A DNA stretch of 64,000 bases. Origin: Vishniacozyma victoriae (lineage: Eukaryota; Basidiomycota; Tremellomycetes; Tremellales; Bulleribasidiaceae). Shown here piece after piece: positions 39,744 to 51,791 of the stretch (positions within the stretch are counted from its first letter, which is position 1; each line of letters starts with the position of its first letter). The translations under genes were made by a program, and so were the position numbers. Location: contig JADPYG010000088.1 in the NCBI GenBank assembly GCA_017654735.1, forward strand, positions 1,178,001 through 1,242,000. The letters are read 5' to 3'. The notes under the pieces are model-generated. The model made no database searches and had not been told where the DNA came from. It saw nothing but the letters and a program-made list of their open reading frames with translations.

Positions 39744-41474
39744 CTATGCAAGACGTATACTCCCCATAAAATCCTTCTCCACTACAGTCCATTCATCGGT
39801 ATTCCATTTTTCAGCTTGATCGACCCACTGTCGCTTCAAAGCCCGTTCCCACAGCTTCCAAGGCTCACGACCTTCAACGAATGTGGCGCCTAGCAAACCC
39901 ATGATCCGCTCTTCGGCCACATCCGCGAAGTAGGCCAGGCATACAACGATCATAATCCTGAGCTGATCGGCGCGGGAGGAAGATGTGATGAAGTGCTTCT
40001 TGTCGAAAGGGAATAGATCCGGCGTGGCGGGCAGAGCGGAATGGGCCATGAAGAAGAGGAAGAATCGCTCCCGGGTCGTCGAGGTCATGCGCTCGACCGT
40101 AAATAGATCGGGTACAGAATTCGTAGATGATTCCATCAGATGGACAAACGATTCCGGATCTTCGATGGTGGTTAGCCGCTCCGGAGTCAGGATCGCAAAG
40201 TGACGAGGCGAAGGGGAGATTAGGAGGTGGGAGAAGAATTTGGGATCTGCCGTCTTGATTGGGCATACTTGTTTCTCGCTAGACGAGCTCTGCGCCGACA
40301 AGACGAGGTTTTCTCTCTGATCCAGGAATTCGATATGCAGGCTGATACCAGTCTGAGCGACTCGGGACCGACAAAATGTCTCGACGATCCTCCTCGCGGT
40401 TCTCTCGCTCCATCCTGGTGATTGCCAGGCGATCGGTAATCCCACTCCCTCCACGTCATCCTGAGGTGCATTCCAAGCGTCTTTGGCTGCTTCACTACTA
40501 GGCTCCGGACGAGGATAGACAGCAAGTCGTTTTTCGTAGTGTAGTCGATAGGCCTGATACATGATTCGTGGTGTCGTGAGGAGGAGTGAAAGGGGGTATC
40601 GGAGTAGTGTTCCAAGTATTTCAAAAGAGCGGCTCGGATCTAGGTCGATACTGGGTCGAGAGGGGCTGGAAGCGAGGAGAGCTTGTAATTTGCATTCTTT
40701 CGATGGTGTAAGTAAGCGTAAGAATACTTTGATTTCCGGGACGGCACCTGAAGAAGGGGATACGAATGGATCGATAATGTCGAGACGGTAGTAACCGTTT
40801 CGAGAATTGAATGGTGAAACGTGGAATGACCGAGGGAATGTCCAGGAATGGTGATACCCCTCGGCAGTCTCAACGAGATGTTGCGAGTCACGTTTGAGTA
40901 CATATGCGTGTCTGTTCGTCAGTACATCTCTTATCCAGGCTCCATGAACTCACTTTTCACCAAAAGTGTTATGCACTTCCAGGATGACGCAAGTCAATTC
41001 ACGCTTCTCCGAGTAGATATACCAGACCGAGAGAGGATTGATGCCCTCGAAACCTATGAAGCTAGGCATCGTGACCAGCCACATATGAGCCATATCCGCC
41101 TCTCCTAACCCTTGCTCCGTCAACAGACGCTCCGCCTTCTCTCGTAAGCTCTCCAGCCCAGGCCGGAGGTAACCGTCCGTCCTTAGTCCTAAGCATTTTG
41201 TCCACGGTCTTCCGCCGTATCTTAGTATCCTGCCTGGTAGATCCAGTTGTCCGTTTTCCAGAGCATCAACATCTACACCGAGGTATAAGAGCGGGTAGGA
41301 GAATGCGTGCCGGGAAGGTTTGGGTAGGTGTCTGGCGTGGGAGGTATAAGCTGGTATGATGATCGATCGAAGTCCATTCGAGGGTGTTTTTCGTTTCTTG
41401 CCTGTTGAGAGTGATATGAACCAGGTCCCGACTATCGTGAGGGCTCCTACTAGGAGCGGAATGGTTACTGTCAT
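39744..41474 (-). CDS. DUF1365 family protein
   Basis: A membrane-anchored DUF1365 protein of unknown function; in bacteria the family is often found beside cyclopropane-fatty-acid synthase genes. The N-terminus is a probable signal anchor (TVTIPLLVGALTIVGTWFIS). The domain contains HAFSYPLLYLGVDVDALENG, FIGFEGINPLSVWYIYSEK and LTCVILEVHNTFGEK joined over an intron to HAYVLKRD. It continues SWTFPRSFHVSPFNSRNGYY, which match the family's NPLSVWY, EVNNTFGE and KxFHVSPF motifs. A C-terminal region (39744-40560) follows without a recognised fold. It is divergent from RAI1 across 117 bp. Confidence 0.85.
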
Positions 41475-41591
41475 CTTCTCATGTTACGACGATATAAGTT
41501 GCAGTTGACAAGAGTTGGTTCGTCATTTCCAGGCACTCAGCACCAAAAGTTAGTCCAGTCTACCAAAACACCTCCGACTTTCTAAACGATC

Positions 41592-43057
41592 ATGGCCCCG
41601 CCAGCAACGCATACGTATCTCCCACTGCCTCCCAGAGGGTTGAGAGAACCTCCACCAGTATATCGCAAACCTATCCTAGTCTCGACGTACTCACATCAAC
41701 CAGACAGGTCAATCAGGCATGATGATAGTTCCATGATGTATTACCGGGAAGCCCCGGTCGGTGTCGACCTGAATTACCGATTTGATGAGCGTACTGAGCG
41801 CGGAGAAGATGAGGATGAGCATTTAGATGGGATCTGTGAGGCATTGCAGAATGTGCTGGAAAAGGGAGAACAGGGAGAGAGGAAAGGGGGTATAATCACC
41901 TGGAGAGGGATGATCACCAGGTGTGTCTCCTTGCCTTTGGATGTATCAAGCTGATGGGCAGAATAATGACAGCTCCATTCGAACATAGAGACGAAGAGAA
42001 ATGGGAAATGACAGCCATAGCCCTAGACGGATCAGTATATGTGGAACTACACGACCCTCCCGACGTCCGGAAAGAGAGGAGAAATAGGCAATCTGCCCAT
42101 GCGATTCAATCCTACATGGGATACTCTTACGAGTCTTTCTCGACAGTGGCAGCTCCTGATAAAGTGGAAGAGAAGTTTGAGGGACAACATGAAAGCTGGT
42201 CGGGGGACGTAAATACGAATGTTCAAGTATGTCCATCTATTTCTTGTTATGGTCAAAGCTGATTGCCAAGTGGTGCAAGTACGTTCGACATTGCCTCATT
42301 TGCTGATCGAAGTCTAGTACGGTCTGCCATAGGAGACGTGCCCTTGTTCCTTGGCGGTGAAGTGGACTGCGTAGAGGGTACGGATCCCTTATTTGATTGA
42401 GGTGTACAAATTTGACGTCTAGCTGAGCCGGGAGCACCACACCCTGGTTTGGAGGGTTGTGTTGAGCTCAAGACGAATATGCTGATACGAAATGACAGGC
42501 ATCAGAAGACGTTCGAGAGGTAAAGAGATTCATCCTGAAGACATCATATTGCTAATCGAATAGGAAATTGCTCAAACATTGGGCGCAATCTTGGTTATTG
42601 GGAGTACCAGTGAGTCTGGTCATTTCATATACCAGTGCGTATGCTGATATCCTAGACGGTGGAAGTCGGCTTCAGAGATGAGGAGGGAATTGTGCATACA
42701 CATCAAAAGTTCAGAACGGAAGACATACCGCCAATGTGAGTGCTTGATGCCTCTAAGGCGATGCTCATCTACAGGATCGCAACACTCCCAAACCCACCCT
42801 GGAATCCAGCACACAGTCTACACTTCCTACACGGAGTCCTATCACTCGTCCTCTCGCATGTCCTACCCTCAGACCCGACCCCCGAAGGTGGTCTCTCGCC
42901 AGATCAACCCCTACCTCCGGCAAAAGTATGGCGATTCAGCTTCATCCCACGCAGAGGATGTGAACTTTGGTTTGTCGGTGATATTGGATCGGAAGATGGG
43001 CGATGGGGAGGTGTCTTGAAGGATGAGTATGTTAGATGGCGGATGTCTCGACCATGA
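41592..43057 (+). CDS. RAI1: Rai1/DXO-family RNA 5'-end decapping nuclease
   Basis: Removes incomplete or NAD caps from RNA 5' ends and partners the 5'-3' exonuclease Rat1 in the nucleus. The spliced protein has ITRIMTAPFEHRDEEKWEM, GYSYESFSTV, VNTNVQWCNLVRSAIGDV, FLGGEVDCVEG (acidic metal site), CVELKTN (ELK catalytic motif), [20 protein letters not shown] RDEEG and HTHQKFRTEDIPP. All are Rai1 landmarks in order. Keeping this frame requires an 8-nt exon (42271-42278) between two introns, the second only 34 nt (42279-42312). The start ATG 41592 gives MAPPATHTYLPLPPRGLREP. It ends EYVRWRMSRP. Confidence 0.93.
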
Positions 43058-43381
43058 GAAACACGGGGATTTGATTCCCTGTTCATGCATCGTCATGAGA
43101 CGGTTATGAAACCAGTTGAATGCGCTGTGGGAGCAAAGGAGGGATCAAGGGTACTCACAAAGGTACCGCAGGGGTGACGATCCTACTCCCTGGTCTCTCT
43201 GACTCACTCAAGAACTGCTAGTCAGACATAAGTCTGACATATTTCTCTTGCTCCCAAATAACCACTATCACGATAAAAGACCAAGAGGTGAGTCGTAATG
43301 GGTAGTATCATCGCTGACATCAGTCCATATAAAACAATAATTTCGAACGAAAACATCGTATCTCGACAACCAGCAGACCAG
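43058..43381. other. Intergenic region with likely 5' UTR intron
   Basis: The 324 bp upstream of the tail-anchored-like gene. A probable untranslated intron runs from the GTGAGT at about 43288 to the acceptor CTGACATCAG near 43328. It would remove the ATG at 43298. GCAAAGGA, the heptamer seen 5' of the nearby secreted-protein genes plus one base, occurs at 43133-43140. Confidence 0.45.
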
Positions 43382-43945
43382 ATGGCCGACTTATCCCTAT
43401 CCCCAGCTCCAAGTGCCGCAGCTCCGGCAGCCGCACCAGCACCAGTAGCCTCACGACCAGCACCCGAACCACTCAAAGCCGAGACAGCCGATCCCGCCGA
43501 AGCTAAAGATGAAGCCGAAACCCCTACACGAGTAGCTCCCGCCGTCCCCAAAGCGACAGTAGCCGGTGCAGCCTCGTCTAATGAAGGTCTTGGAGGCTTG
43601 ATTCCAGACATGTTTTCCGACGGCACAGATGAAGCGTCTTCTGCCGTCTCGACAGGTCGTGCGCTCCAACCGCAATCGACGTTGTCAAAAGCTGGACCAG
43701 TGCAGACAGATACAGAATCACCACTTTTCCAAGGCGTTACGGACGTAGGTGAAAACTGCCCCTCTACCGATACGAGCTGTGAGAAAGCCTTCAACAAGAC
43801 TGTGCCCATTGCTTTAAGTACCATCAGTAAGTCCTTCATTCTCTGTGGTAGACTTCGACTGAGATCAGTCGGTGGAGGGGTACTCCTCGCTGTGATTTTG
43901 TTATTGTTGAGAAGGCGACGCCGACGCCGACAGTCGGACGAGTGA
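43382..43945 (+). CDS. Ala/Pro-rich protein with a C-terminal membrane anchor
   Basis: I do not recognise this family. The chosen ATG (43382) gives MADLSLSPAPSAAAPAAAPA. The upstream in-frame ATG at 43298 lies in a probable 5' UTR intron. A 42-nt intron (GTAAGTCC ... GACTGAGATCAG) near the 3' end is in frame either way; removing it yields ALSTIIGGGVLLAVILLLL followed by seven Arg. The result is 173 aa with a disordered Ala/Pro/Glu-rich N-terminus and a single C-terminal hydrophobic segment, like a tail-anchored protein. Cys pair in ENCPSTDTSCEKAF. The membrane topology is inference. Confidence 0.6.
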   Translation: MADLSLSPAPSAAAPAAAPAPVASRPAPEPLKAETADPAEAKDEAETPTRVAPAVPKATVAGAASSNEGLGGLIPDMFSDGTDEASSAVSTGRALQPQSTLSKAGPVQTDTESPLFQGVTDVGENCPSTDTSCEKAFNKTVPIALSTISKSFILCGRLRLRSVGGGVLLAVILLLLRRRRRRRQSDE

Positions 43946-44139
43946 GAAGGAAAGGCTCTTGTTTAGCTATATTTGTGTAATAGTCCACATGTACCAGCAA
44001 AGACAGTACAACCCATACGACTTTTAGTACTTGCACTACCACTTCTACTCACCAGCCTCGTAGCAGCAGTGGTGTCTCAAATGGGAAGAGGTGTTGATTG
44101 CGTACGATCGATGGGTGAAGCAGCAACGCTAACTATGCA

Positions 44140-44674
44140 TTATGGTGCTTTCGTGCAGACGATATACAACCCCTCCAGCTGCTGAAACTCATTGATGGTG
44201 CTATCAGCATCTAATCCCCAATCTGCCCAGGTGTACCAGTCTAGTCGAGGAACTTTGGGATCGTGGTTCAAGCGAACCGTACACTAATATCAGCCGGTGA
44301 TCCCAATGTGTGCAACTGTGATAGTGCACCTTTATCCCTGAATCTTTATCTTTCTCCTTGTCGTGGAGCCACAGGGTCCTCTCTTTATCTGATGGACGGG
44401 ACCAAGCCATGTAGTTCACTCGCCAATTGCCCTGCCCCTCCGGCGTTTTCGTCCCCAACGCCCAATCCTTGTTCTCCTTGTCCTCGTGCTTTCCTGGCCA
44501 GAACACACCGTCCTCGCCTTCGACGGTGGCCATATCCCGATCAGGGAAGCCAACTATGATCATCAATCGAAATTCGGTCTCGAACAGGGTATCGTCCTCC
44601 TTGGCGAGTGTCTGACGAGCTTGTAGAAGAAAGTTGAGGGCTAAAATGCCAAAAGAGTGTTTGAAAAACAACAT
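44140..44674 (-). CDS. Small secreted protein, array member A (most diverged)
   Basis: A 162-aa member of an unrecognised five-gene family. A signal-peptide-like N-terminus (MLFFKHSFGILALNFLLQAR) is followed by charged sequence, DWALGTK, WRVNYMAWSRPSDKERTLWL and a Lys/Asp stretch. A 46-nt phase-0 intron (GTGCAC ... CGGCTGATATTAG) follows SGIK and the second exon opens CTVRLNHDPK, exactly as in the other members. Family resemblance lies mostly around the ERTLWL motif and the intron-CTV junction. The second Cys is displaced (GLYIVCTKAP) instead of being in a W-L-x-C motif. The donor GTGCAC is weak. It is the last gene of the array; its promoter has a 23-24 bp inverted repeat. Confidence 0.75.
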
Positions 44675-45094
44675 GATAGATGTCGATTGAGTGCTTGCTA
44701 ATGGATACAATGGATGGATACGAGTCTGGGCCTGCCTACATAAATCACCGATGATCTCGGTGATCATCTTCCCTTCCTTTGCTGATCTGTTACGCCGCAA
44801 AATCGATAAGGGATGTCACCTCCTGTAGCTCCTTTCGGCCTTGCCCCTGTTCAAGAGGGATTGAGGGGACAATAGGCGATATCCCTGCTTCAACTGCAGG
44901 GGCAAGACATCAAAGGAGCTCGGGCGTGGCGGCCTCCTTGATCTGGGTGGCTCTATTTAGCTGAGGGGTGCTGCATGCTTTCCCAGTAGAGATGGCCACA
45001 GCTGCTAAGCCTGATGTGACGATGACCTTGGAAGAAACCGAATCTTGCCGTGCTTCCGGTAATTGAGCTACCTCTCATGCTTTTCACTCATGTA
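44675..45094. promoter_or_regulatory. Upstream region of array member A
   Basis: 420 bp holding an imperfect inverted repeat (44827-44920), several CCCCT/AGGGG (stress-response-element-like) motifs, and CAAAGGA at 44911-44917 and, inverted, at 44775-44781. No ORF of note. Confidence 0.45.
44827..44920. repeat. Imperfect inverted repeat upstream of member A
   Basis: Left arm 44827-44849 (AGCTCCTTT, 4 differing bases, CTTGCCCCTG) and right arm 44897-44920 (CAGGGGCAAG, 5 bases, AAAGGAGCT) are reverse complements except for the 4-5 nt centre of each arm. A 47-nt loop separates them. It could be a regulatory element or a remnant of a small inverted-repeat element. Confidence 0.85.
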
Positions 45095-45654
45095 CTAATC
45101 TCTATTCCATACCCGCAACAGGTACCTCAACAAGTCTGTATCACTACAGTCAAGCCAGTTGGGATCTTTGACTATCTGCCCTTCCCACATTGAAGTCCCT
45201 CCCTTCGAAGCTAAAAATAGCAAGAGCTCTGAATCGACTTCCAGGCTGGTTTTAGAGGTGAATGTTGCCGTACACTACAAAGCACATCAGCATTTTTCGA
45301 CTACGCAGGATGAAGACTACTGACACTGGTCATCCCCCTAGTTGGACTATCTTTATCCCCTTGCCTGATCCAGAATCGCACCGCTTTGGGCAAGACATCG
45401 TCAAAAGCCAAGAATCCCGCCTGAGAGAAATCGGTTTCTAGACGATTCTCCTTAACGTAATCCCATTTATCTTCGATCTTGACTCTGTAATCTTTCGCAT
45501 TGGTGTGAGGGAGTGTCCAATCTTCTCGAAGGACAGTAAGTGTCATTATATTGTCGTCTGTGGGAGTTGGCAGCCAGATTGATACTTGTGATGCAAAAGC
45601 GGACAGGCCGAGATATAAGATAGACAGCGAGGTGAAGGTGGTAGAAGTTCGCAT
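45095..45654 (-). CDS. Small secreted protein, array member B
   Basis: A 169-aa family member. The signal peptide MRTSTTFTSLSILYLGLSAF ends at AFASQ. The mature part has VSIWLPTPTDD, VLREDWTLPHT (the EDWT motif) and KAVRFWIRQGDK (equivalent of KRAFWV). A 50-nt phase-0 intron (GTCAGT ... AATGCTGATG TGCTTTGTAG) separates RGMTS from CTATFTSKTS. Exon 2 has LLLFLASKGG and NWLDCSDTD with the second family Cys. Exon lengths sum to exactly 170 codons. It has a Ser rather than Lys before the intron. Unlike C, D and E, it ends soon after the second Cys, in YLLRVWNRD. Confidence 0.85.
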
Positions 45655-45984
45655 TGTGCTGATTGATGATTGAGTGGGTCAGCAGTGAGCTGAATCTACA
45701 AAGTGTTAGAATAATGGGGTGCTTTGAGAGGCACGAAACATCTGAGCGACAGGATCCATTCATCTCCCAAAATTCCCACCTGAAACAAGTTTTGGATTGT
45801 TTGCCACTCATTCCTTTGATTTGCCCAACGTCAATCTGTAGAACAATTTCATACCGTTTTGCTGAGTAAACGTTCTTGGTTGCCCGGTGCATCGATGATC
45901 AGCATCCAAGAGAGTAAGATACAGAGTCGGCAGTCGTGTCATGATAAGAATGCGATGTAAATTGATACGACGCGATTCATAAAA
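45655..45984. promoter_or_regulatory. Upstream region of array member B
   Basis: 330 bp between members B and C. The family-associated heptamer is present in inverse orientation (TCCTTTG at 45812-45818). I see no other feature and no ORF with support. Confidence 0.4.
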
Positions 45985-46568
45985 CTAAGACCAAGTATCG
46001 TCTGGTTTTGCAAAAAACATATCGTCCCAATCCCCATTTCCGCCCGCACAGTGAAGCCAGTTCCTCTCCGGCATATCGTCCTTATCTTTCCACGTCCAAG
46101 ACGGGTCCTCTTCGTTATCCATGTGTGATAAGAAGACCCAGACATCCTTCTTCAGCAATTTGAGAGATTTGACGGTACACTGCAATAGTCAGCAGGCCAT
46201 CACTACTATCACTGGTCCATTGAGCTACTCACTTTATGCCACTGCCTAATTATTCCATCCTTCAGGTAGGGCTCCTCTGCATCGCTCACCCAAAAGGCAC
46301 GTTTCCCATCGGACCAATCACTGTCCCACTTCATGACTCCTGAAACCTCAAACATCGTGTCTTTTCCCCCCGGTATTTTCATTGGCTCGAATCCATAGTC
46401 ATTTAGGTATTGCTGCTTGGTTGTTTTGTCGAGCGTCCAGTCTGATCTGAGAGTGATCATGGTAAGAGGGGTCTCGGCTTTTACCTCGGTATAGGTGATG
46501 AGCTTGGCGGCCGCAACCCCAAGTTCAAGGAATGAGGTCATGGCCACAATCAAGTGAAATGGTCTCAT
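45985..46568 (-). CDS. Small secreted protein, array member C
   Basis: A 176-aa family member. The hydrophobic start MRPFHLIVAMTSFLELGVAA fits a signal peptide with cleavage near AAA-KL. Mature landmarks: LITYTEVK, LRSDWTLDKTT, GVMKWDSDW, DGKRAFWVSDA and IIRQWHK. A 53-nt phase-0 intron with canonical GTGAGT donor and CTGACTATTGCAG end precedes CTVKSLKLLKKDVWVFLSHM. The second Cys sits in RNWLHCAGG and the end is MFFAKPDDTWS. The upstream longer reading (to 46619) is not used because it would bury the signal peptide. It resembles D and E most. Confidence 0.88.
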
Positions 46569-46853
46569 TGTGACTGGTATATCTGGTTGTGATAATTGAG
46601 AAGGATTTGAGCACTGCAAATAGAATTCGAATTGAAGTTCATATCTACTGGGCGGTAGCTAACCTGATTTCCCCCCTAGCTTCCCTTTCACCCCGCCGAT
46701 CTGACCGCGCTTGACCATCCCTTCCCCTAAGTGGCAAAGGAGCGCGAAGGATTGATGAGGTGTATGGGATTGTCACCCTTACAGAAGACTGGGGAGAGGA
46801 CAGGAAGAGAGCTAAGTAGAGTGCATGGATCAAGCTACGTGATTCACAATAAC
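46569..46853. promoter_or_regulatory. Upstream region of array member C
   Basis: 285 bp, containing GCAAAGGAGCG at 46734-46744 (heptamer 46735-46741) and a CCCCT motif just before it. The same 11-mer is found upstream of member D. Confidence 0.45.
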
Positions 46854-47463
46854 CTAAGTGCTGCCGTCTGGCATCTTAAAGTAATCCCCAATTCTCTTTC
46901 CCTTTGGGGGATAGCACTTCAGCCAGTGATCATCCAGATGCTCTTTCTTCGCCGTGTCTGCCCACGAAACCTCCCCGGGCATGTTTTCTGGAACCAGATA
47001 CACGTAGACATCTTTTTTTAAGCGTTGTGTAGAACGGACGGTACACTAATCGAAATCAGTACCGAAACACTTGCCACCATGAATAGTGGACATGGCGTAC
47101 CTTGAGCCAGTCTCTGACAACACCCTGAGAGGGCGAGTAGGGATCGGCTTTGAAGGGATCGCCTACAAAGTCCGCAGTGGTAACCCAAAAAGCCCTTTTC
47201 TCACTAAAGTTCTCAGTCTTCCACTCCATCAACCCCGTGACTGCGAAAAAGTTGTCGCCGCCACCAGGTTGTTGTATATGTCCGAAAGCTGTGTCCGGAT
47301 TGCGGAGGAAATCGTTTTTGGTCCTCCTGTCGAATGTCCATTCTGCTGTTAAGGTGACAATCGTCAGATTCCGTTGGACAGGTGTGTAGATCCTAAAAGC
47401 GACAGCGGAGACATGGAGTCCGAGGGTCGCCATCATCCCAATGATCATGTATATTCCTCGCAT
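46854..47463 (-). CDS. Small secreted protein, array member D
   Basis: A 184-aa family member. The signal peptide is MRGIYMIIGMMATLGLHVSA. Mature landmarks: FRIYTPVQRN, LTAEWTFDRRTK, GLMEWKTENF, SEKRAFWVTTADF and VVRDWLK. A 55-nt phase-0 intron (GTACGC ... GTACTGATTTCGATTAG) precedes CTVRSTQRLKKDVYVYLVPE. The second Cys lies in DDHWLKCYPP, and the end is YFKMPDGST. The exon lengths total 185 codons exactly. I do not use the longer upstream reading to 47742, which has no signal-peptide logic. Confidence 0.88.
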
Positions 47464-47872
47464 CTTGTGTTGACGAACTACTTCTGATGTTTGCTTCGAA
47501 GTTGTATAGCATACAGTCCAGGGCCAAGGTATGATACAGTAGGTCTGAAGGCTTCCTTTCTTGACGTCGATCGGATCGGCACTAGCCTCCGTTGCCCCAC
47601 GACTGCAAAGGAGCGAGTGGGCAGAGGTTTCACTGGATCCCAAGGTCCTGCACCCAGCCAGGTATGGCAGATCCCTAGTCTGGTGGATGCCCTTCGAATT
47701 ACGAATCATAGTCGATCCATGCCACGACTCCGGGGTCAACATGGAAGAGACGGTCGGTCTATGTAGACTAGCCGGTGGATCTGGCGACCTTTCGCATGCT
47801 GCGTTGATGCACCAAACGGTCTACAAAGGTCTTCTATGGATGCGTTCAGCCTTGATCGATCGTATAGGTCAT
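47464..47872. promoter_or_regulatory. Upstream region of array member D
   Basis: 409 bp between members D and E. GCAAAGGAGCG occurs at 47605-47615 (heptamer 47606-47612), identical to the site upstream of member C. Plus-strand ORFs here (to 143 codons) have no supporting features. Confidence 0.45.
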
Positions 47873-48507
47873 CTACGGCGAACAAATTGTCAACGGATCA
47901 TCGTCACCTTCCCTATACCCCACCCCATCACTCAGATCCATATCATCTGGCTTGACAAAGTACTTGTCGTTCCAGCCACCTCCTTCTCGTAGACACCTCA
48001 GCCATCCCGCCTGTAGTGAGTCTGCATAGGTTTTATAAGTGTATGACCATTTCCCTCCGAGGAAAAGCCAAATGTCACCACTCTGCCAGGATCGAGGAGA
48101 AACAGTACACTGATAGCATCAGTTCTGATCCAGCATTTGGAATCTCTTCCCCTCCAAGGACTGACCTTTAGTAACCCTCGCGTTTCTACGTTCGGATCTC
48201 CCTTGCCCACCCAAAACGCCCTTTTCCTGACAGGTGTTATGTCCGACAAGGGCTCAGTCCAGTTGAGCTGTCCGCCAACTGCATACTTCGCTTCTGGATG
48301 ATACGGGATTCCTCTCTCCGCATCATTCAAGAAACTGAAATAGCTTTTGTCGTGACTATCGATTGTCCAGTCCTCGGCGAGAGTCTTAATATGAAAGTCG
48401 TCATCGACCGGTGTGTAGATTCTTAGACTAAAGGGTTTGTCATCGGCAGCGAAAGCGCTCAGGGCATGTACGATAAGGGATGCTGATAGATATTGCTTGG
48501 CTCGCAT
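47873..48507 (-). CDS. Small secreted protein, array member E
   Basis: A 192-aa family member, first in transcriptional order. The signal peptide is MRAKQYLSASLIVHALSAFA. Mature landmarks: FSLRIYTPVDDD (same IYTPV as D), LAEDWTIDSH, QLNWTEPLSD, RKRAFWVGKGD and TRGLLK. A 56-nt phase-0 intron (GTCAGT ... AACTGATGCTATCAG) precedes CTVSPRSWQSGDIWLFLGGK. The second Cys lies in AGWLRCLREG. Its C-terminus is the longest of the family (KPDDMDLSDGVGYREGDDD, then a further Cys in LTICSP). The exon lengths total 193 codons exactly. Confidence 0.88.
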
Positions 48508-48846: not shown

Positions 48847-51791
48847 CTACTTTCCAGATTCAAGGACCAGGAAACTGGCAGCCGCCGGCGACCCACCACC
48901 GAGCATCATGGCGGTTCCCACATCCCCGACCGTTTTCCTGAGTTCGGCACCGACGCTGGGATCCCTACCCTTTTCTGCCAAGATGGTAGCAATTTCATTC
49001 TCGTGATTGACGACCGCACCCTTCCTTCCACGCCCAGCGACGATGAGCATGGATCGCCAGACTTGAGTCGGATTGGCGTTCATGGACTGACACGCTGCTT
49101 CGGCATAGTGATGAGCTTGAGTGAGGGGTGAGGCGGACTTAGTGGTTCCAAACGTGATTCGATGCAAAGCGGCGGTGGTGAGGGCACTACGAGGAGGCGA
49201 GACATTGGATGATGTAAAGTGGGCCCAGGCAATATCGTCTGCTGAATCGAAGTTGAATCGACCTGGGTTCTCCTTGTTCTGTGGATCAGTAAAGGTACAA
49301 AGTAGGGATTGATAATGACTCACGGCTGCAGACGATGGTCCCATGCTGAGTTGGTTCGAATGTAAAGCCGCCTGATGAGCTTGGACCGACTCGCTTAAGA
49401 CCTCCTTTTCGGTAGTCGACTCGTTGTCGGAAGTCTGAATCTGGTGGTAGACGATAGTAGCAGTGACATTGGGATGGTGACACAATTGTACCACGAATCG
49501 AAGTGCAAGTCGATCATCTCGACCACCAAAGAAGGGCAAGAAGATATGCTGGTTGACACCTGGAGTAAAGGTGGAACCGAATCCTCGATCGACAAACAAG
49601 GCGGTATCAATCTTGGCTTCATTGAAGACTCTTCGGACAAAGTGGGTGTAGATAGGCGAACCAGCTTGAGATGCGAAAATGTTGTCGAATGGAGTGACTC
49701 CCTCGGCTTGAATCTCGGCATCCTCGATATGGGAGGGGACAGTCCAAGGGATGAGAACGAGTTCAGAGCCAAGTTCAGAAGAGTACTGCGATACGGATTC
49801 GGGATACTGGACTTCCTCAACAACAGCGATATGTGGCGTAACTTCAAGACCTCGGAGTCGACCGAATTGCTTGAAGAGCTGTAAAGTATCGTCGGTTCGG
49901 AGGATCTCTTCCTTTTCGGCAGACTGCATGACAGAGTGCATACGACCAGTCAGCTCGAGCAGCTTGAGGGCATCGATATGGACGGGTAGCGATTCAGAAC
50001 CGGCGTCATGCTGAGCGTGGTACTGGGAGGGGACATTGCTGGGTACAGTCTTGAGAGATTCATCCGAAATATCGCCGTCATCCGTTTTCTTGTTCTTGAT
50101 GACTGATCGAAGAGTGTCGACAGGTGGTTTGGCCTGATGAGTGGGGAGGGGTTCAAGCATTTGCGCGAGGAGCATGACGGGAGCGAGGTGTTCAATCTTT
50201 TGCAAGATGACCAAGATGCGGGAAGTGTGTTCTCGGCCACCTGATCCACCCATAGTTGGAGGACCGGAAGTCTCGACATCTCGAGCACCATCAGTGTCCT
50301 TGACACGGAATCGTTCCGGGTAGAATAGGAGGGTGAATGGTGTAGTTATGAACGTCAAGACGAGGGCGACCACGACAAAGGCAGAGAACAGCTCTTCGTT
50401 GATGATACCGGCGGAGAGACCGACATTGAGGACAATGATTTCGACAAGACTGATATCAGCACACTTCTCTGAGATAGGCTTACCCTTTGCACGACATCAA
50501 CATTCCAATGGCACCACTTTCTCTCCATGAGTAACCGAGCCAGTAGGCGACTCCACCACATCCAATGAATTTTCCAGCCCAACCGACGACAATAAGGAGA
50601 ATGGTGTATCCCCAGATCACGCCCGTGTTGAGAAGACCCATGTTGGTGTTGAGTCCGGAAAGCACAAAGTACTGTAGATCAGCCAGGACTTGAACAGGGG
50701 TGTGAGCGACTTACAACGGGCAAAAACAAAAAGGTGACGATATCGTCAATCTTTTCGACAAGCGATATAGCGAAACCACCTTGATGAGGGACAACTAGAC
50801 CGGCAAGGAATCCACCAAAGATAGGGTGTACACCTGTGAGTCAGTGATGAATGGCAGTATGTGGCTGCAGAAACTCACCGATGATACCGGTAAAGAAGGC
50901 TGAAGAGAAGATCATGACAAAGGTAGCCACCATCATGAGCGGACTAGGCCCATTATGACTACCAGTCTTGTTGACCAACCACCTGAATCCCATTTTGACG
51001 GGCCACAACATGAAGATCGACCAGCCGACAGCGGCGAGAAGAATGTAAACTGCCGAAGCGCCGGATTTGGAGTTGACGAGAGCAAGGGTAAGAGCGAGCA
51101 AGACCCATCCGACGACGTCGTTCCCTACACCGGCTGCGAGGACAATGACTCCCACTCGATTCTCGAGAAGCTTGGTGGCGGTGAGGATTCGACACAAGAC
51201 TGGGAAAGCGGTAATGGCCATGGCGACACCGACAAAGAGTAGGAAATGGCCGAACGAGGTAGTCTCATGGTCGACGTATCGGTTGTAGAGGGGTACTGCG
51301 ACTGCTGTTCCAAGTCCAAAAGGCAAGATCATTCCAATCACGGAGATCAGGGCTGCATTTCGACCATTCTTCTTCATCGTCTTGGGGTCGACTTCGACAC
51401 CAATGAGGAATAGAAACAGGATGAGACCGATATTGGCGACGAGACTGAGGTTGGCCATGGATGGTTTGGGAAATATCGAGGCGGAGAAGTTGGGTATGCG
51501 TCCCATGACAGTTGGACCGAGGATGACACCACCGACGACCTCTGCAATGACCTTGGGTTGTCTTGCGAACGAAAAGAGATATCCCAATCCTTGAGTAAAG
51601 AGCAGGATGATGACGATTTGAATGATGAATACGGTGATGGGCTGGCATCAGTAGATGATCACAGGATGGTGACTCACGTTGGTGGCATCATATTCAACGG
51701 GATTGAGACCAGTAATTACACTTTCGTTGACTCCTGCTCGTTTGGCGAGAGCACTGACCGAATCTGCCGCTCTATTGAGTAGCGCGTACAT
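48847..51791 (-). CDS. KHA1: K+/H+ antiporter Kha1 (CPA2 family)
   Basis: An intracellular monovalent cation/proton antiporter. The N-terminal half is the Na/H exchanger fold with about 12 TMs: VFIIQIVIILLFTQGLGYLF, RQPKVIAEVVGGVILGPTVM, GLILFLFLIGVEVD, GVAMAITAFPVLCRILTATK and LAAGVGNDVVGWVLLALTLA (CPA2 ND motif intact). HPIFGGFLAGLVVP, LYFVLSGLNTNMGLL and MLMSCKGLVEIIVLNVGLSA follow. The cytosolic C-terminal half (VTPHIAVVEEVQYPE, VDRGFGSTFTPG, HIFLPFFGGRDDRLALRFVV) matches Kha1 regulatory regions. It ends AAASFLVLESGK. Start ATG 51789-51791 gives MYALLNRAADSVSALAKRAG. Introns are few for its length. Confidence 0.93.

Follow-up and report, generated by a model that had tools for sequence, protein, structure and literature searches.

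Gene models of the array

The window, that is, the whole stretch of 64,000 nucleotides (nt) analysed from Vishniacozyma victoriae (C11:1178001-1242000, within a 17-contig assembly of 11.58 Mb), contains five neighbouring minus-strand genes at 44140-48507, here called A to E, which encode proteins of 162, 169, 176, 184, and 192 amino acids (aa), respectively. Their exons and introns are as follows.

44140..44674, minus strand: gene A, 162 aa; exon 1 44330-44674, intron 44284-44329, exon 2 44140-44283; exon 2 backed by the relative P0043
45095..45654, minus strand: gene B, 169 aa; exon 1 45325-45654, intron 45275-45324, exon 2 45095-45274; exon 2 backed by the relative P0020
45985..46568, minus strand: gene C, 176 aa; exon 1 46233-46568, intron 46180-46232, exon 2 45985-46179; closest exon 1 relative P0001
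46854..47463, minus strand: gene D, 184 aa; exon 1 47101-47463, intron 47046-47100, exon 2 46854-47045; splice model
47873..48507, minus strand: gene E, 192 aa; exon 1 48166-48507, intron 48110-48165, exon 2 47873-48109; twelve E-type relatives

Each gene is interrupted by one GT-AG intron in phase 0, with lengths of 46, 50, 53, 55, and 56 nt from A to E, and a CTGAY branch-point-like motif precedes the 3' end of the intron in all five. A preliminary description of this DNA had proposed five adjacent minus-strand genes with these coordinates and lengths, whole-codon spliced lengths, one intron at a common place, and Cys-Thr codons directly 3' of it; all five models were recovered, and the exon features hold in five of five genes. 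Alternative GT-AG splices are also open. The product of the chosen splice ranks first in length for B, C, and E, second for D, and sixth for A; in D and A it was chosen because the shared intron site results, and for A the choice is also supported by P0043. This relative of A carries a retained in-frame intron and then reads on as CTVVLNHDPKVPRLDWY, supporting exon 2 of A, while the relative P0020 likewise retains an in-frame intron with both exons in one predicted protein and supports exon 2 of B. Since their in-frame introns have kept both exons, the two relatives are useful for reading exon 2. A promoter word search across the five 350-base upstream regions found no 8-mer, and a single 7-mer, common to at least four of them.

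Protein features

Fungal small secreted proteins (SSPs) are delimited in an excerpt of PMC8355462 by a size cut-off of <300 aa, and A to E, at 162-192 aa, lie below it. Under a simple signal-peptide rule of our own, B, C, D, and E pass and A fails, Asn and Gln being barred from the hydrophobic stretch; the same rule is also passed by 21 of 205 mechanically called open reading frames (ORFs) of the window, with B, C, and E accounting for three of these. The earlier statement that all five proteins start with a signal peptide is thus supported by this rule for B to E, while the product of A likely carries one. The maximum 11-residue hydropathy mean after residue 35 is 0.57-1.40 in A to E, with no second strongly hydrophobic segment, and by this hydropathy measure no transmembrane segment follows the signal, as is asked of SSPs. 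The highest 9-residue mean within the last 25 residues is 1.43, found in A; no C-terminus is strongly hydrophobic, which favours soluble export over a glycosylphosphatidylinositol anchor.

The number of cysteines is 2, 2, 2, 2, and 3 from A to E, and a conserved pair lies 38-43 residues apart in every protein. Tryptophan accounts for 40 of 775 mature residues (5.2%), compared with 1.5% in mechanically called window ORFs of at least 150 aa. Among the motifs previously listed as shared, KRAFWV occurs in C, D, and E (with VRFWI in the corresponding place in B and ERTLWL in A), and a YTPV-like start (YTPV/YTEV) in the same three; DWT/EWT is present in B to E, four of the five, but does not extend to A. 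Across 34 B-E-type exon 1 rows, L40, W44, R90, and F92 (C numbering) are invariant, as is W93 in 33 of 33.

Relatedness of B to E and the place of gene A

With signal regions removed, all six pairs among B to E outscore 500 of 500 shuffles, with z values of 5.4-42.8. A profile of exon 1, for which B to E themselves were among the input rows, recovers these four among 1578 window frames at an expect value (E) of 1.5e-33 or better. On these sequence comparisons, B to E descend from one ancestor.

Several results weigh against adding A to this family. The four pairs with A give z values of -0.7 to 1.6, their scores being reached by 36 to 394 of 500 shuffles, and the exon 1 profile matches A at E 2.7 only, beneath two non-gene frames. 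Comparison of the A-type with the B-E-type profile gives a probability of 3.3% (P 0.013) when untrimmed, and after trimming, 49 of 200 column shuffles score as high. Neither A nor P0043 scores with exon 2 (225 of 500 shuffles). In genome searches, which score only candidates from a loose first look in an assembly that may be incomplete, A and P0043 retrieve none of B to E even at E 10, and B, D, E, P0028, and P0017 do not retrieve A, nor does C at E 1. These scores, not convincingly above shuffles, and the failure of A-type and B-E-type queries ever to retrieve each other would be expected if B to E alone formed the family and A were an unrelated secreted gene placed next to them by chance.

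Gene anatomy points the other way. A has a single phase-0 intron directly before Cys-Thr, its intron junction reads KCTV as in C, D, and E, and its Cys spacing of 42 is that of B. The best local match between the A and B-E profiles, M.W..SD..R..W, is collinear, and among A-type exon 1 sequences compared with 500 shuffles, A beats 495, P0043 482, and P0033 365. Two contig sizes are, moreover, common to A-type and C-type relatives. The shared intron site, KCTV junction, and Cys spacing make a chance adjacency unlikely, and A is kept as a probable distant member of the B-E family, joined to it by these features and by its position in the array, not by convincing sequence scores.

Distribution in the genome and in sequence databases

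Searches of the assembly with A to E and the relatives P0043, P0028, and P0017 list exons of this array only. A degenerate KRAFWV pattern finds exactly C, D, and E, and its reversed control finds none.

Three database searches returned 29, 16 (one new), and 13 matches, together 43 distinct relatives. All are unnamed or called 'hypothetical protein', and no Pfam domain is precomputed for any of them. Public environmental sequence data contain relatives of the A, B, C/D, and E types; none was confirmed in viral contigs. Thirteen came from the search with A. The other 30 were sorted by an exon 1 tree of 34 rows (the four window genes B to E and the 30 relatives, with A and its relatives excluded and the row of P0019 ending early) into 5 B-type, 12 E-type, and 13 C/D-type. 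Support for the C/D group is 93/96, beneath the starred level, and the E-type rows, which form no supported clade, are those left over outside the B and C/D groups. D sits on a long branch within the C/D group and has no clear ortholog among the matches. Exon 1 of P0001 is 92% identical to C in one search and 94% in another; overall, C-type relatives range in identity from 94% to 56% and A-type relatives from 92% to 42%.

Many relatives stop shortly past the intron start and are mostly exon 1 pieces, and their short frames appear to be calls made without intron models. Three pairs of different type come from the same source and have longest contigs of equal size (P0019/P0035, 13903; P0029/P0032, 4193; P0010/P0011, 2834). 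The equal sizes suggest that array members are neighbours in relatives, too, and that the array has been kept.

Library searches and rejected identities

No convincing Pfam match was obtained for the five proteins or for 29 B-E-type and 15 A-type aligned rows, no convincing NCBIfam match for 14 rows, and none among PDB sequences, where A had no match at all. The absence of a recognised family in the preliminary description holds for the libraries searched. The low-scoring hits were taken as chance: Myosin_N in C (E 0.029, with 14.6 bits where the cut-off is 27); four Pfam families, each in a single one of the 29 B-E-type rows (best E 0.057); among the 15 A-type rows, DUF1923 twice (best E 0.0045), GH59 three times (0.018), and tRNA_m1G_MT once (0.14); three NCBIfam families in one or two of the 14 rows (best E 0.049); and PDB entries 3l9a (E 0.34) and 8s83 (E 0.73). 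Literature searches gave nothing on this protein family among the matches listed.

A C-type lectin-like domain was considered on account of an exon 1 profile match at E 0.032 to struthiocalcin-1 (PDB 4uww). It was rejected as the lone such chain of two listed up to E 10; the array proteins, unlike 4uww, lack Cys where its cysteines align. The first half of the C-type lectin-like fold needs more residues than precede the exon 1 match; the likely signal cleavage is followed by just some 23 residues before the aligned DWT. Up to E 10, no Pfam lectin family is listed for the 29 B-E-type or the 15 A-type rows, many of which are exon pieces, and the filters drop most matches above about 0.1. Also set aside were Kre9/KNH-like Ig domains, ML domains, and lytic polysaccharide monooxygenases, since none is among the Pfam matches and the predicted mature N-termini of B to E do not start with His. 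Cys-rich small secreted proteins such as hydrophobins, cerato-platanins, and similar proteins have four or more conserved cysteines; A to E have two or three, and no such Pfam family was listed.

Proposed function and alternatives

Tandem clusters of small secreted proteins are common in fungi, and A to E resemble such arrays in their small size, probable signal peptide, lack of a recognised domain, and tandem paralogs. They differ in having only two conserved cysteines, a high Trp content, and no convincing Pfam, NCBIfam, or PDB match. From the sequence features gathered here, it is fairly probable that the array is a genuine secreted tandem family, an estimate that does not extend to any ligand. 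The proteins are most likely a set of taxon-restricted, soluble, Trp-rich extracellular proteins with one predicted disulfide. Of the earlier proposal that one secreted family expanded by tandem duplication, the homology of B to E, the gene anatomy shared by A, and the finding of members in this array only, in searches of the assembly, are upheld, while A lacks a convincing sequence score. The suggestion of a lineage-specific family is plausible but tentative, the relatives being mostly exon 1 pieces apparently called without introns, and that of a cell-surface, host- or environment-facing role is conjectural.

The proteins would be exported via the secretory pathway with removal of an N-terminal signal of about 20-25 residues, and one disulfide would join the Cys that opens exon 2 to the second conserved Cys (WLxC in B to E). 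The mature chain would form a compact, Trp-rich, soluble domain, possibly rich in beta strands, whose conserved aromatic residues may bind a ligand, most simply a glycan or other surface molecule, from the fungus's own wall or from neighbouring organisms; duplication and divergence of the array would then diversify binding. Exported, soluble, one-disulfide, Trp-rich domains would most simply bind something outside the cell, and the binding of a surface or glycan ligand is put forward tentatively, Trp content being the sole argument for it. Set against it are the Pfam scans, in which no lectin or carbohydrate-binding family was recognised, and our own propensity plot, a mixture of strand and helix that leaves the fold undecided.

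Effector-like proteins, acting on another organism (a plant, alga, fungus, or animal) and not on the fungus's own surface, are an unlikely alternative, on a par with the chance placement of A. Many fungal effector arrays consist of small, exported, unrecognised, tandem, and divergent proteins, and the array matches this description, with its probable export and its identities of 23-37% to E or C. The identities to relatives given above, however, are uninformative on the rate of change without species distances.

Less likely still, the proteins may be Kex2-matured precursors, in which the dibasic pair before AFWV of the C, D, and E types would be cut in the Golgi to yield a Cys-free N-terminal piece and a C-terminal protein that carries both conserved cysteines and is 86-96 residues long in C, D, and E. 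All 28 C/D/E-type rows have KR (27) or RR (1) immediately before AF. This is the sole such pair in C and in E, D having three and A and B none; an excerpt of PMC6339444 gives KR/RR as the usual fungal KEX2 site. The dibasic site is, however, absent from all 6 B-type and all 14 A-type rows. The Arg by itself is present in each of the 34 B-E-type rows, and all 14 A-type rows carry one at the equivalent position, a pattern that suits a structural role of this residue. The same excerpt describes KEX2-processed repeat proteins (KEPs) as having at least three repeated motifs set apart by KEX2 sites. The array proteins are like KEPs in their probable export and in the conserved KR/RR pair of the C/D/E types, and unlike them in having one conserved site, no repeats between sites, and no site in the A and B types; identity as KEPs was rejected on the missing repeats, the KR/RR pairs being too few for three of them except in principle in D, where no repeats were seen by eye.

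Effector-like action and Kex2 maturation need not exclude surface or glycan binding. In a wider and distinctly speculative picture, an undescribed secreted fold family with an intron-marked plan would have split into at least four old types that stand side by side across related fungi, with the C, D, and E types cut by Kex2 into Cys-free and disulfide-bonded Trp-rich pieces, as a set for surface recognition or antagonism.

Spacers and neighbouring genes

Features in the spacers and beside the array are as follows.

46768..46808, plus strand: candidate relic of an inverted exon 1 copy in the C-D spacer, reading IVTLTEDW; 76% complementary to D 47322-47362 over 41 nt
48847-51647, minus strand: sodium/hydrogen exchanger gene directly upstream of E, with PF00999 in 50841-51647
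41586-41954: RAI1-like frame on the far side of the array, beyond A
39744-41483: DUF1365 frames on the far side of the array, beyond A

The candidate relic, tested after being noticed, scores 9.2 bits with the exon 1 profile, a value reached by 1 of 300 dinucleotide shuffles of the six spacers, and it may hint that genes have arisen and been lost within the array. Searches of the spacers by blastn and tblastx gave nothing significant among the matches listed. The exchanger is presumably KHA1-like; a 549-aa frame ending at 48847, without a Pfam match, probably represents its C-terminal part. The neighbours include nothing suggesting a pathway. Beside A, two long open frames overlap on opposite strands, at 43222-43962 (minus) and 43292-43945 (plus), with no Pfam match at E 0.01; the plus-strand frame, rich in Ala and Pro, has a hydrophobic stretch and an Arg run at its end.

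Significance

The sequence family is new to the libraries searched, and its kind, tandem small secreted proteins, is ordinary in fungi. The array is one of many such and by itself does not change the understanding of fungal secretion. What it provides is a bounded, unnamed, and probably secreted family with exact gene models, four types, and environmental relatives, and such a family can become a family model for tracing in fungal genomes and secretomes.

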